From NCBI GenBank assembly GCA_944350365.1, contig CALVOU010000008.1, forward strand, positions 1 through 39,747: a stretch of DNA of 39,747 nt, in the 5' to 3' direction. The notes below the pieces were generated by a model, which was given only the letters and a program-made list of their open reading frames with translations, was not told the DNA's origin and did no database searches. Origin of the DNA: an uncultured Bacilli bacterium. Its GTDB lineage: Bacteria > Bacillota_I > Bacilli_A > RF39 > UBA660. The translations under genes were made by a program, and so were the position numbers. Below are positions 14,919 to 20,310 of this stretch, one piece after another (the first letter of the stretch is position 1; every line of letters begins with the position of its first letter).

Positions 14919-14946
14919 TATTTGGAATTTAATAGTGAGGGACGAA

Positions 14947-15654
14947 ATGGAAAATAAAAATATCACACTTAAAGTACTAATGATTGCGATTATCGTTGCG
15001 TTAGGTATAAAAACATATTTGTTATGTGTAGAACAAGAAGAAGTGACCAATCAAGTGGAGCGTTATGTCCAAAATACGGTTTATCGTAAAGACTCTACGA
15101 AAAGCATTGCGGATTATCAGAATACCTACCAGAATCCTGAGATTGTGGGTAATTTGCTGGTGCCTGGTACTGATTTTCAAGTATTAGTTACTCAGACAAC
15201 CGATAATTCATTCTATTTACAACATGATATAAAAAAGGAATTTTCAGAATTAGGAAATCCTTTTTTAGATTACCGAAATCATTTAGAAGATAAAAAGCTA
15301 TTGATCTATGGACATAATTCGCAAACTGTCTCCACAGAGTTTCAATTTTTAGAAAATTATCTTTCTGCTCAGTTTTATGAACAATATCCTGTTTTTATTT
15401 GGCAAACAGAAGATGCTTTGGATGTTTATTCGTTTGCTGGTGTTCTCATTGTCGATTCTAATTTTTGGCATATGCAACTAGAGTTTACGGAAGAGAAGTG
15501 GCTTCATCATTTAAATTGGCTTCAAAATCAGTTTCTATATTCAACAGAAGTCTCTCTTGATATCGATGATCAGTTATTAATTTTACAAACTTGTTATTAT
15601 GAACCAAAGGACTCTTACTTATTGATTGTTACGAAAAAAGAAACAGAAATTTAG
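14947..15654 (+). CDS. Class B sortase-like protein
   Basis: This is a 235-residue membrane-anchored protein with the SrtB layout: an N-terminal signal anchor (about residues 9-27), NPEIVGNLLVPGTDF, FYLQHDIKKEFSELGNPFLDYRN, the catalytic His in LLIYGHN (His123) and the catalytic Cys in LLILQTCYY (Cys216). Class B sortases are transpeptidases that attach proteins with NPQTN-like signals to peptidoglycan or build pili. The third catalytic residue, an Arg shortly after the Cys, is not seen: the position that aligns by eye is Ser223 in KDSYLLIVTKK. Activity may therefore be altered. No sorting-signal substrate is encoded nearby. The ATG at 14947 has GTGAGGG upstream; the in-frame GTG at 14935 is part of that site. 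Confidence 0.88.
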   Translation: MENKNITLKVLMIAIIVALGIKTYLLCVEQEEVTNQVERYVQNTVYRKDSTKSIADYQNTYQNPEIVGNLLVPGTDFQVLVTQTTDNSFYLQHDIKKEFSELGNPFLDYRNHLEDKKLLIYGHNSQTVSTEFQFLENYLSAQFYEQYPVFIWQTEDALDVYSFAGVLIVDSNFWHMQLEFTEEKWLHHLNWLQNQFLYSTEVSLDIDDQLLILQTCYYEPKDSYLLIVTKKETEI

Positions 15655-15662
15655 ACAAAATA

Positions 15663-15692
15663 AAACTTCGTCTAATTGCGAAGTTTATAATT
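15663..15692. terminator. Bidirectional terminator between sortase and lexA
   Basis: AAACTTCG (15663-15670) pairs with CGAAGTTT (15679-15686). T-rich sequence follows on the plus strand, and TTTTATTTT follows on the minus strand. The right arm overlaps the lexA stop codon. Confidence 0.7.
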
Positions 15693-16302
15693 TTCGATAT
15701 AAGCCAATTACTTTTCCTAAAATAGTTACGTTTGGTAAGATGATTGGTGTCATAAAGTCATTTTCTGGTTGTAGTCTAAAATAACCATTTTCTTTGTAGA
15801 ATGTTTTGACAGTTACTTCATTCTCATCAGTCATCGCAACGACGGTATCTCCATTATTTGCAGTTTCACATCGTTCAACGATAATAATATCCCCATCGTA
15901 AATACCAACATTAATCATCGATTCACCACTTACTTTTAAAGTGAATACTTTTTTCTTATTAGGCAGTAAACTTGTCGGAATCGAAAAGAATTCATCGGGA
16001 ACTTCGATTGCTTCAATAGGGTTTCCTGCTGTTACTTTTCCTAATAGGGGAACTTCAGCCACTTTATCGTTTTTTTCTAAGTATTCATTAGGAACCAGAA
16101 TTTCGATTGTTCGATTTTTCGCGGTATCTTTTTTAATATATCCCTTTTCTTCTAACTTTGTTAAATGAAATTGAATGGTAGCTGGTGAGGAAAGATGTAC
16201 CATTTTTCCAATCTCTCTAACCGTAGGTGGGTATCCTTTTTCTGCGATAGCTTTTTTTAATGTGTCTAAAATCATTGCTTGTTTTTCAGTAAGTTTTTCC
16301 AT
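15685..16302 (-). CDS. lexA: SOS repressor LexA
   Basis: This 205-residue repressor is self-cleaved in the presence of RecA filaments, derepressing the SOS regulon. The N-terminal winged helix-turn-helix is PPTVREIGKMVHLSSPATIQ (about residues 25-44). The cleavage site is Ala92-Gly93 (GKVTAGNP). The catalytic dyad is Ser128 (SGESM) and Lys166 (VTVKTF), almost the same numbering as Bacillus LexA. The start has a perfect AAGGAGG. It is transcribed divergently from a tiny membrane-protein gene, and LexA boxes lie in the shared control region, so autoregulation is likely. Confidence 0.97.
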   Translation of the reverse strand: MEKLTEKQAMILDTLKKAIAEKGYPPTVREIGKMVHLSSPATIQFHLTKLEEKGYIKKDTAKNRTIEILVPNEYLEKNDKVAEVPLLGKVTAGNPIEAIEVPDEFFSIPTSLLPNKKKVFTLKVSGESMINVGIYDGDIIIVERCETANNGDTVVAMTDENEVTVKTFYKENGYFRLQPENDFMTPIILPNVTILGKVIGLYRKL

Positions 16303-16323: not shown

Positions 16324-16354
16324 CTATGTTAACATAGTTTGTGTCAATTGTCAA
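16324..16354 (-). promoter_or_regulatory. lexA promoter
   Basis: On the minus strand, TTGACA (16354-16349), a 17-bp spacer and TAACAT (16331-16326). The -10 lies within a perfect 14-bp palindrome, CTATGTTAACATAG (16324-16337). The -35 touches the LexA-like box at 16352-16365. Confidence 0.75.
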
Positions 16355-16365
16355 ACAAACGTTCA
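16352..16365. promoter_or_regulatory. Probable LexA box 1 (lexA side)
   Basis: CAAACAAACGTTCA compares with the Bacillus-type SOS box CGAAC-N4-GTTCG (8 of 10 fixed bases). It overlaps the lexA -35. Confidence 0.65.
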
Positions 16366-16382
16366 AATATTTTTAAAACACA

Positions 16383-16411
16383 TTGACACGAACAATTGTT
16401 TGTAATAAAAT
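16383..16411 (+). promoter_or_regulatory. SOS promoter of the small membrane protein gene with LexA box 2
   Basis: TTGACA (16383-16388) and TAAAAT (16406-16411) are 17 bp apart. CGAACAATTGTTTG (16389-16402) fills the spacer almost exactly and matches CGAAC-N4-GTTCG at 9 of 10 fixed bases. LexA bound here would block RNA polymerase directly. Confidence 0.85.
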
Positions 16412-16437
16412 GTGGTTGTTTAGAAGGAGTGATTGAT

Positions 16438-16581
16438 TTGAAAAAAGAATACAAATGGTTAGTATTAATTTATGTAGGAGCAGTTTTATTTTTTTATCTT
16501 CTGTCTCTTCGAGTAGAAAAGCTAGAAAGCCAAGAAGATATCTCTAATCGTAATGAGGCGATTATTTTACGTATAAAATAA
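16438..16581 (+). CDS. SOS-controlled 47-residue single-span membrane protein (SosA/YneA-position)
   Basis: The small ORF starts at TTG 16438, with AAGGAG (16424-16429) eight bases upstream; the in-frame GTG at 16429 overlaps that site. The product has a short basic N-terminus (KKEYKW), one hydrophobic span (about residues 8-24, LVLIYVGAVLFFYLLSL) and a charged ~23-residue C-terminal tail likely outside the cell. There is no LysM domain. It is divergent from lexA and its promoter contains a near-perfect LexA box. In Bacillus, Listeria and Staphylococcus this position holds yneA or sosA, SOS-induced membrane inhibitors of cell division. A similar checkpoint role is inferred from position, regulation and topology. 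I see no convincing sequence similarity. Confidence 0.75.
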   Translation: MKKEYKWLVLIYVGAVLFFYLLSLRVEKLESQEDISNRNEAIILRIK

Positions 16582-16649: not shown

Positions 16650-17600
16650 ATGGTTTTAGAGATAGTATTATTATTAATAGGATTTGTTTTGATTATTAAG
16701 TCAAGTGATATCTTAATTGATTGCGCATCGTCGATTGCTTTACTTTGTAAGGTACCTAAGATGTTGATTGCGCTAACGATTGTTTCTTTTGGTACTTGTG
16801 CCCCAGAAGTGGCGATTTCTTTCAATAGTGTGGTGGCGAATAATGGTAGTATGGCATTAGCCAATGTGATTGGAAGTTGTATTGTTAATATTTTGTTAAT
16901 TATTGGAATCGCTTCAATTGTTAATCCCATCAAAGTGAAGAACGCCACAGTAAAAAAAGAATTACCCATTTTGTTTTTAATTACCGTAATTTTCTTCATC
17001 TTATTGATGGATCGTATGTTTAATCCGAATACACCATCTTCATTTTCTCGTTCGGATGGCACTATTTTGATTTTATCTTTCGGTATTTTCGTTTACTATT
17101 TAGTACAATTATTAAAAAATAAAAAACAAGATCAAGAAGAAGTAGAGAGGAAATACAAATTACCAGTCGCATTAATTTTATTTGTTATTTCTACGATCGT
17201 TATCGTTTATAGTAGTGATTTAATCGTTGATAATGCTTTATCTCTTGCAGAAAGACTTCGTGTTAGTCCTAAAATTATTACCATGATTGCGGTTGTTGTT
17301 GGTACTTCGCTTCCTGAATTGGTGATGACGGTAACTTCCGCTAAACGGGGAGAATTTGATCTCGCTATTGGTAATATTGTCGGTACGAATATCTTTAATA
17401 TCTGTATTGTTTTAGGATTACCTATTTTAATTTATGGCGATTTGGAATTAGTTGATTTTAATTTTATTGATATTTTCGTTGTTTTATTATCCTCTTTCTT
17501 ATTATATATATTCGCACGTAGTGAAAAAGAAATTTCCAAAAAAGAAGGAATCATTATGTTATTTGTCTTCTGTTGTTACTACATCTATCTGTTTATCTAA
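16650..17600 (+). CDS. Sodium/calcium exchanger family (CaCA) antiporter
   Basis: This 316-residue cation antiporter of the CaCA superfamily (YrbG type) has ten predicted spans in two homologous halves separated by a charged loop (about residues 150-168, KNKKQDQEEVERK). The alpha repeats are visible: TIVSFGTCAPEVAISFNSVV...ALANVIGSCIVNIL in the first half and VVVGTSLPELVMTVTSAKRG...AIGNIVGTNIFNI in the second, with the ion-binding Glu in each PE pair. The family exchanges Na+ or H+ for Ca2+ across the membrane; the ion here is not determined. The start has GAGGGTGA upstream. Confidence 0.93.
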   Translation: MVLEIVLLLIGFVLIIKSSDILIDCASSIALLCKVPKMLIALTIVSFGTCAPEVAISFNSVVANNGSMALANVIGSCIVNILLIIGIASIVNPIKVKNATVKKELPILFLITVIFFILLMDRMFNPNTPSSFSRSDGTILILSFGIFVYYLVQLLKNKKQDQEEVERKYKLPVALILFVISTIVIVYSSDLIVDNALSLAERLRVSPKIITMIAVVVGTSLPELVMTVTSAKRGEFDLAIGNIVGTNIFNICIVLGLPILIYGDLELVDFNFIDIFVVLLSSFLLYIFARSEKEISKKEGIIMLFVFCCYYIYLFI

Positions 17601-17697: not shown

Positions 17698-20310
17698 ATG
17701 AAAAAAGTAATTTTAGTTGATGGAAATAATCTTTTATTTCGTAGTTATTATGCTACTAGTTATACAGGCTCAATCATGCGGAATTCTAAAAATTTTCCGA
17801 CAAATGCGATTTATGGATTTATCAATATGATGAATAAAATTATTGTTGAAGAAAAACCAGAATATATCATGATTGCTTTTGATAAAGGAAAAACGTTTCG
17901 CCATGAAGAATATCCCGACTATAAGGGAGGAAGAAGTGAGACTCCTGAAGAGTTAAAACAACAGTTTCCAGTTGCTAAACAAATCTGTACTGCGATGGGC
18001 ATGCAATATTTTGAGATTGATAATTATGAAGCAGATGATATCATTGGGACTTTTGCGAAGAAGGTAGAAGAAGATCCTGAGTTTGATGCGACGATTATTA
18101 GTAGTGATAAAGATTTGTTACAGTTAATTAGTGATGAAATTGATGTTAAATTGTTAAAGCAGACAGGATTTATTCGGATGGACAAAAAATTGTTCGAGGA
18201 AACGTATCAAGTAGAGCCGATTAATATGATTGATATTAAAGCTTTGATGGGAGATAGTAGCGACAATATTCCTGGAGTTAAGGGAATCGGTGAAAAGACA
18301 GCAATCTCTCTTTTATCTAAGTATCAAACGATTGAAAATTTATACGATCATATCGATGAAGTAACTGGTAAAACCAAAGAAAAATTGCTTAATGATAAGA
18401 AAAATGCTTTTATGAGTAAAGAGATTGCGACGATTTATCGTGATGTTCCTATCGATACCGATTTAGAAAAAATTAAATATACCGGAGTAGATGTTTTAAA
18501 ATATGTCGAACTATTAGAAGAATTAGAATTTTATTCGCTAATTAAAAAAATGAATATTCCTGAAGAAGTCATTAAAGAAAATAAAATGCAAGAAGTAGAT
18601 GTGAATATTTTGACAGATTTAAGCAATATACAAATTGAAGGGGATTATGCTTTATATTTAGAAATATTAGGTAGTAATTACCATAAAGATAAACCTCTTG
18701 GAATCGCAATTTATAATGAAAATACGAGTCTTTATATTCCGTTTGAAGTATTAAAACAAGCTCCAGACTTTTTATGTAGTGAACAAGAAAAATACACCTA
18801 TGACTTGAAAAAAGTATGGTATATTTTGAAAAAGAATGGCCTAGATATCAAGAATTGTCATTTTGATACGATGATTGCTGCCTATTTATTAAACGAAAAT
18901 ATCAAAGATGATATTGCTTACCTAGCGAATAATAAAGATTATAATATTTCTTTTTATGAAGAAGTGTATGGTAAGACTGGAAAAGAAGTTGAACCAGATA
19001 TCGAAATCATCGCTAAAAAAGCAATCGAGAAAGCACGCTTTATCTATGAGAGTAAAACCAAATTAGAAGAGCGATTAGAAAGCGAAAATGATATTCAACT
19101 CTTTAAAAATATTGAGATGCCTTTAGTTGAAGTGTTGATGGATATGGAATTAACTGGAATTCGGGTAAATTGCGATTTCCTAAATCAAATGGGTAAAGAG
19201 TTAGATGGAAAAATCGAAGTGCTAGAACAAGAAATTTATGATTTAGCGGGAGAAGTATTTAATATTTCTTCGCCAAAACAGTTGGGAGCTATTCTTTTTG
19301 AAAAATTAGCTTTACCGTATCCTAAAAAAGTAAAAGACCATAATTATTCTACCAGCAAGGAAATCTTGGATAAACTAGTTAATGATTATCCTATCGTTGA
19401 AAAGATTTTAGATTATCGGATGTTGACAAAATTAAAGAGTAATTATGTAACTGGATTACTTGCGGAAGTGGCAGAGGATGGTAAGATTCATACTATTTTT
19501 ACCCAAACGTTAACAAGAACGGGTAGACTTTCTTCAATATGTCCTAATTTACAGAATATTCCGATTCGAACTGAAGAGGGAAGATTGATCCGAAAAGCGT
19601 TTATTCCCGAAGAAAATGCTTGTATTCTATCTAGTGATTATTCGCAAATAGAACTTAGAATTTTTGCATCTCTTGCTAATGTAGATAATTTGATTCGGGC
19701 TTTTGAAGAGGGAAAGGATATTCATGCGAAGACGGCTTCCGATATTTTTGGGGTTCCTTTAGATGAAGTGACTAAAGATATGCGACGTACGGCTAAAGCA
19801 GTTAATTTTGGGATTCTTTATGGTATTAGTAGCTTTGGATTATCAGAAGACTTGGGAATCGATATCGCTAGTGCGAAAAGCTTTATCGATGGCTATTTAA
19901 ATACTTATCCTGAGATTAAACAATACATGAATGAAGTGATTCAAAAAGCTTATCAAGATGGTTATGTGAAGACGATTATGAATCGAAAAAGAACAATTGA
20001 TGAGTTGAAAAATAAGAGTTATCTTGTTCGTAGTCAAGGGGAAAGAATTGCTTTAAATACTCCAATTCAAGGAAGTAGCGCCGATATTTTGAAAAAAGCA
20101 ATGATAGAAATTTATCGTGAATTTAATGATAAGAAAATCAGAAGTAAAATGCTAATTCAAGTACACGATGAACTTGTTTTTAATGTTTATTATGATGAAA
20201 AAGAACAAGTTGAAGAGATTGTTAGACGAATTATGGAAAATACTTATCACTTAAATGCTCCATTAAAAGTGGATATTGAAAGTGGTAGTGATTGGTATGA
20301 AGCAAAATAA
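17698..20310 (+). CDS. polA: DNA polymerase I
   Basis: This is a family A polymerase of 870 residues for Okazaki fragment processing and gap filling in repair. The N-terminal 5' nuclease domain (about 1-290) contains VDGNNLLFRSYYA, DNYEADDIIGT, ISSDKDLLQL and GDSSDNIPGVKGIG. The central 3'-5' exonuclease-like domain appears inactive: the first DxE motif reads YLE within LYLEILG, as in Bacillus and Thermus enzymes. The polymerase domain has motif A DYSQIELR, motif B RRTAKAVNFGILYG and motif C VHDEL. The ATG at 17698 after AGGAG is the start; an upstream in-frame start would add seven non-conserved residues. A cupin gene, mutM and a GNAT gene follow. Confidence 0.97.
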   Translation: MKKVILVDGNNLLFRSYYATSYTGSIMRNSKNFPTNAIYGFINMMNKIIVEEKPEYIMIAFDKGKTFRHEEYPDYKGGRSETPEELKQQFPVAKQICTAMGMQYFEIDNYEADDIIGTFAKKVEEDPEFDATIISSDKDLLQLISDEIDVKLLKQTGFIRMDKKLFEETYQVEPINMIDIKALMGDSSDNIPGVKGIGEKTAISLLSKYQTIENLYDHIDEVTGKTKEKLLNDKKNAFMSKEIATIYRDVPIDTDLEKIKYTGVDVLKYVELLEELEFYSLIKKMNIPEEVIKENKMQEVDVNILTDLSNIQIEGDYALYLEILGSNYHKDKPLGIAIYNENTSLYIPFEVLKQAPDFLCSEQEKYTYDLKKVWYILKKNGLDIKNCHFDTMIAAYLLNENIKDDIAYLANNKDYNISFYEEVYGKTGKEVEPDIEIIAKKAIEKARFIYESKTKLEERLESENDIQLFKNIEMPLVEVLMDMELTGIRVNCDFLNQMGKELDGKIEVLEQEIYDLAGEVFNISSPKQLGAILFEKLALPYPKKVKDHNYSTSKEILDKLVNDYPIVEKILDYRMLTKLKSNYVTGLLAEVAEDGKIHTIFTQTLTRTGRLSSICPNLQNIPIRTEEGRLIRKAFIPEENACILSSDYSQIELRIFASLANVDNLIRAFEEGKDIHAKTASDIFGVPLDEVTKDMRRTAKAVNFGILYGISSFGLSEDLGIDIASAKSFIDGYLNTYPEIKQYMNEVIQKAYQDGYVKTIMNRKRTIDELKNKSYLVRSQGERIALNTPIQGSSADILKKAMIEIYREFNDKKIRSKMLIQVHDELVFNVYYDEKEQVEEIVRRIMENTYHLNAPLKVDIESGSDWYEAK

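Follow-up and report, generated by a model that had tools for sequence, protein, structure and literature searches.

The window analysed here, a stretch of 39,747 nucleotides, is contig C8 of a 1.47-Mb, 80-contig genome (G000). It carries lexA, identified by the TIGR00498 model, and divergently from it a short open reading frame (ORF) that begins with TTG at 16438-16440, runs for 47 codons and ends with a stop codon at 16581. Its 47-residue product, MKKEYKWLVLIYVGAVLFFYLLSLRVEKLESQEDISNRNEAIILRIK, has one membrane span. A preliminary description had placed this ORF, with its TTG start, back to back with lexA behind a TTGACA/TAAAAT promoter whose 17-bp spacer holds a LexA box, and our analysis confirmed both the ORF and the promoter, which spans 16383-16411 (Table 1). 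A 61-residue product read from in-frame upstream TTG and GTG codons was rejected, as relatives back only the 47-residue start.

Table 1. Features of the lexA-divergent locus in the window
Feature	Position	Strand	Remark
lexA, SOS repressor	15685..16302	-	divergent from the small gene; PF01726, PF00717, TIGR00498 (E 7.5e-66)
Second LexA-like box, TGAACGTTTGTTTG	16352..16365	-	lexA-proximal, putative autoregulation; usually retained in relatives without the small gene
-35 element TTGACA of the small gene	16383..16388	+	TTGAC immediately 5' of the box in 88/98 relatives
LexA box, CGAACAATTGTTTG	16389..16402	+	in the small-gene promoter spacer; only 0-mismatch site of the window
-10 element TAAAAT of the small gene	16406..16411	+	TATAAT-like hexamer at 16-18 bp in 88/98 relatives
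Ribosome-binding site AAGGAG of the small gene	16424..16429 (approximate)	+	just 5' of the TTG start
Small gene, 47-aa single-pass membrane protein	16438..16581	+	begins with TTG, coordinates include the stop; candidate SOS-induced division inhibitor
Calcium/sodium antiporter gene	16650..17600	+	context only, outside the system
polA	17698..20310	+	context; in the bacterial family, usually the next gene after the small gene

The antiporter gene separates the small gene from polA in the window's sub-clade and at locus L111, and polA lies directly downstream in most relatives. Convergent with lexA, a gene at 14935-15654 (+) encodes a 239-aa protein with an N-terminal transmembrane (TM) segment, YGHN and LQTC motifs and no Pfam match; the motifs recall class B sortases, and the protein is possibly a diverged sortase.

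Conservation and topology of the small protein

We compared the regions upstream of lexA at 132 non-redundant loci, 118 of them from the bacterial family to which the window belongs. At 98 of these 118 loci, an intact ORF occupies the corresponding position beside lexA and points the same way; the encoded proteins have 42-64 aa (median 49), and the hosts of this protein family are uncultured gut Bacilli. The start codon is ATG in 97 of the 98 members and TTG in the window alone; the nearest relative (L004), whose LexA is 100% identical, has ATG at the codon matching the window's TTG. In close pairs, dN/dS ranged from 0.01 to 0.43, indicating purifying selection, and nucleotide differences at the three codon positions numbered 455, 209 and 745. 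The consensus protein has a basic N-terminus and one hydrophobic segment with an invariant tyrosine (Y12), followed by R-[IV]-x-x-L, in which R25 is nearly invariant and L29 invariant in an alignment of 44 rows. A tail of about 15-23 residues follows, often with a beta-like SVSINxxK pattern at its end.

Since an intact counterpart occurs at 98 of 118 loci and dN/dS lies below 1, the small ORF is, on this comparative evidence, a real gene. Conservation of the reading frame beside lexA, on which the preliminary description had made its proposal depend, was found to be strong and extended to the TM span, the tail, the start, the promoter and the box. A chance ORF without a product would be in keeping with the very short length and with the TTG start in the window. 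We rejected this explanation because 97 of the 98 members start with ATG, dN/dS is far below 1 and cross-genus profile matches lie only beside lexA; the probability left to it is negligible. The ORF could alternatively act as a leader peptide or regulatory upstream ORF for the downstream gene, which is polA in 68 of the 98 loci. However, it is conserved in front of differing genes, including tkt (16 loci, in deep genera), the antiporter, lepA and others, and constraint at the amino-acid level runs across the whole TM segment, making a leader function very improbable.

A profile built from 44 members was run against genomes of the family, where every convincing match lay at the lexA site, with E-values of about 1e-7 to 1e-22 across genera; in the searched genomes of other families of the class it gave no match at E <= 0.001. 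The profile does not reach some of the deep members, which have diverged too far; they are assigned to the family by position, size and architecture only, and profile matches in G022 (E 1.4e-4) and G027 (0.004) link part of them to it.

Two loci carry altered forms of the gene. In a sister species whose LexA is 97% identical (L005, genome G016), the small gene is decaying, with the start codon lost, the frame shifted and the operator kept. At L143 (G058), a 28-aa tail-less form, MVELYYLFLNKYIMGMVIFLAFVAYFGA, lies 121-207 bp from the lexA start with promoter, LexA box and ribosome-binding site intact, and is either a naturally minimal version of the protein or a remnant left by truncation.

One hydrophobic segment was found in 98 of 98 members. 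The charge of its N-terminal flank exceeds that of its C-terminal flank in 96 of them (means of +2.7 and -1.2), and the protein is therefore predicted to be single-pass with the N-terminus inside and the C-terminus outside, as in YneA and SosA. AlphaFold2 predicted a single helix, with good confidence over about residues 1-30 and low confidence in the tail.

LexA boxes and predicted SOS control

The small-gene box is one of two exact matches to CGAACN4GTTYG in the whole 1.47-Mb genome; the other, at G000:C64:1984-1997, lies inside an 827-aa ORF on another contig and is probably a chance match. Of the 98 members, 97 have a LexA-like box with at most two mismatches 25-75 bp upstream of the start, compared with 1 of 95 control windows; in 88 members, TTGAC abuts the box on its 5' side, so that promoter and operator overlap. 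The same motif with the same promoter overlap precedes uvrA (TTGACGAACATTTGTTTAAGTAATATAAT), and a weaker version precedes recA (AAAACATTTGTTTG). This regulon check, which covered one box pattern together with uvrA and recA, suggests that the lineage uses this LexA box.

Of the 20 family loci that lack an intact ORF, 17 also lack the box on the small-gene side, and most of the 20 keep the lexA-proximal one (at most two mismatches). On the LexA tree, the label for presence or absence of the small ORF changes at least 15 times; the change count alone cannot separate gain from loss, and the pattern is best read as an ancestral small gene that was lost repeatedly, about 15 times, and that is therefore dispensable. 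In independent pairs, box and ORF changed in the same way and never in opposite ways; the starred branches alone, a small sample, gave a median p of 0.06. Because of the box in 97 of 98 members against 1 of 95 controls, the overlap with TTGAC and the joint loss of box and ORF, the small gene is very likely under LexA control, and from the operator we infer its induction by DNA damage.

An apparently new protein family at the yneA/sosA locus

The NCBIfam model for YneA, NF010723, matched 0 of 44 members at E <= 0.1, whereas YneA proteins of Bacillus, Cytobacillus and Listeria, used as positive controls, matched it at 1e-25 to 2e-28. LysM (PF01476) was absent from 44 of 44 members and was matched by the positive-control YneA proteins, and hhalign of the family against YneA gave a probability of 0.4%, that is, no detectable similarity. 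NCBIfam, Pfam and hhalign thus ruled out YneA membership, and the preliminary description was right that the protein has no LysM domain and no obvious similarity to YneA. Searches of Pfam and NCBIfam gave no family match to the members; an Oxidored_q3 match (E 0.017, below the cut-off) was dismissed as a generic TM match, and a profile search of the PDB yielded nothing useful. Our searches of the open-access literature for this lineage or for small lexA-linked proteins found no description of the family. Because it matches neither Pfam, NCBIfam (the YneA model included) nor YneA profiles, the small protein appears to belong to a new sequence family that occupies the yneA/sosA position, lacks LysM and has about half YneA's length. 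Its functional kind is known already; what appears to be new is the family itself, together with its reduced size and its distribution.

In the deep genera, the gene order is lexA / small ORF / tkt, and in Bacillus and Listeria it is lexA / yneA / (yneB) / DUF896 / tkt, the yneA loci used for comparison being drawn from large plasmid records. The intergenic boxes lie about 61-71 bp and 90-103 bp from the lexA start in Bacillus and Listeria, and at 52 and 89 bp in the window. Given the shared order and the similarly spaced operators, this comparison supports positional homology with the yneA locus, which does not prove common ancestry of the proteins; the yneA/sosA-type position named in the preliminary description is supported by the order in the deep genera. 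Staphylococcus sosA was itself first suspected from the same synteny (PMC6851548).

At three loci of another family of the class, f11 (L114, L118 and L119), a 57-aa one-TM protein (MFNK...FLEVIAYQxK) is encoded divergently from lexA. Several LexA boxes accompany its gene, and the gene that follows downstream is DUF896-like. The protein showed no similarity to the window's family (hhalign probability 0.4%) and no NCBIfam match. As an unrelated protein occupies the same spot here, the lexA-divergent position seems to house proteins that change fast or can be replaced.

Of the known systems, YneA of Bacillus subtilis, B. velezensis and Listeria shares with the small protein the divergence from lexA, similarly placed LexA boxes, a TTGACA that overlaps or adjoins the box farther from lexA, the tkt neighbour (in the deep genera of the small-gene family), an N-terminal TM segment and, on the predicted topology of the small protein, an extracellular C-terminus, but it has about 103-109 aa and a LysM domain that its activity needs, whereas the small protein has 42-64 aa without LysM. 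By its published description, Staphylococcus SosA is likewise an SOS gene product encoded divergently from lexA, with one TM segment, no LysM, a conserved stretch right after the TM segment and an extracellular C-terminus (predicted for the small protein); SosA differs in its 77 aa and in a longer extracellular part required for activity. SidA of the Alphaproteobacterium Caulobacter crescentus, likened here by analogy only, is a very short SOS-induced inner-membrane protein, and division inhibition via FtsW is a property of SidA. The preliminary description had spoken of a minimal inhibitor, and the small size stands, but the protein is not the shortest of its kind, since SidA has 29 aa. ChiZ of Mycobacterium and DivS of Corynebacterium, set beside it from the literature, are SOS-controlled membrane division inhibitors of Gram-positives, but they are larger, belong to Actinobacteria and, in ChiZ, include LysM.

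A candidate SOS-induced division inhibitor

We consider it probable that the small gene encodes a LexA-repressed, damage-induced single-pass protein that transiently blocks septal wall synthesis, like YneA, SosA and SidA, and that it probably does so via FtsW. By analogy, position, size and topology all point to a role in division. The studied occupants of the lexA-divergent position, YneA and SosA, are division inhibitors (PMC6851548, PMC13396833). YneA docks on FtsW by its TM helix and requires LysM for inhibition, and AlphaFold 3 also puts SosA, ChiZ and SidA on FtsW, with low confidence (PMC13396833). SidA inhibits division through interaction with FtsW (PMC4211646). The genome of the window encodes FtsZ, three SEDS proteins (FtsW-type, the best one on the mraY contig) and an S41 (CtpA-type) protease.

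In the proposed mechanism, LexA bound to the promoter-overlapping box would keep the small gene off in undamaged cells. Upon damage, RecA-stimulated cleavage of LexA would release the gene, and the protein would build up in the membrane with its N-terminus inside and a tail of about 20 residues outside, its TM helix probably docking on the FtsW-containing synthase, so that septation would pause during DNA repair. On recovery, LexA would silence the gene again and the protein would be removed, possibly by the CtpA-type protease. Against a role in division inhibition, the tail has just about 20 residues, compared with the LysM domain that YneA requires and the longer extracellular part that SosA requires to block division (PMC13396833, PMC6851548); the family also has no sequence similarity to YneA, and its gene is dispensable.

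The main rival is an SOS membrane peptide of the TisB/DinQ kind, which would lower membrane potential or alter membrane activity and slow growth with no specific divisome target. E. coli DinQ is a toxic peptide with a single TM segment and SOS regulation (PMC3567139), and TisB is an SOS-controlled small membrane peptide (PMC11575346); the small protein also fits their size, single TM helix and SOS control. However, the E. coli peptides act on the membrane itself, are paired with antisense RNAs and occupy another genomic position, whereas the small protein has a conserved hydrophilic outer tail and conserved specific residues (Y12, R25 and L29), and its gene takes the yneA/sosA position with tkt synteny. 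A non-systematic inspection recognised no gene for an antisense antitoxin. We therefore regard this rival as unlikely. The protein might also act, upon SOS induction, as a membrane adaptor in some other envelope process, for example modulating a protease, secretion or a wall enzyme rather than division. Position and topology alone do not fix the target, and the tail of many members ends in the alternating beta-like pattern; with YneA and SosA, the studied occupants of the position, both inhibiting division, such an adaptor seems improbable.

A more tentative extension of the division-inhibitor reading, which we hold possible but doubtful, is that the protein is a Firmicutes DNA-damage checkpoint inhibitor that has shrunk to little more than a TM helix. 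It would stop the FtsW synthase by means of this helix and no more than about 20 residues outside the membrane, would lack LysM and any other wall-binding part, and in one lineage (L143) would consist of the tail-less 28 residues. If true, this would run against the rule, derived from YneA, that docking of the TM helix does no harm by itself.

In the open-access literature searched, we found no SOS division inhibitor described from this Bacilli lineage. If the division-inhibitor reading is correct, the lexA-linked division checkpoint would extend to a large lineage of uncultured gut Bacilli with reduced genomes, and the lexA-divergent position would be one that is refilled or remodelled by fast-changing tiny membrane proteins. 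The family would then supply natural variants of a near-minimal inhibitor by the dozen, with which one could ask whether the helix or the outer tail stops FtsW.
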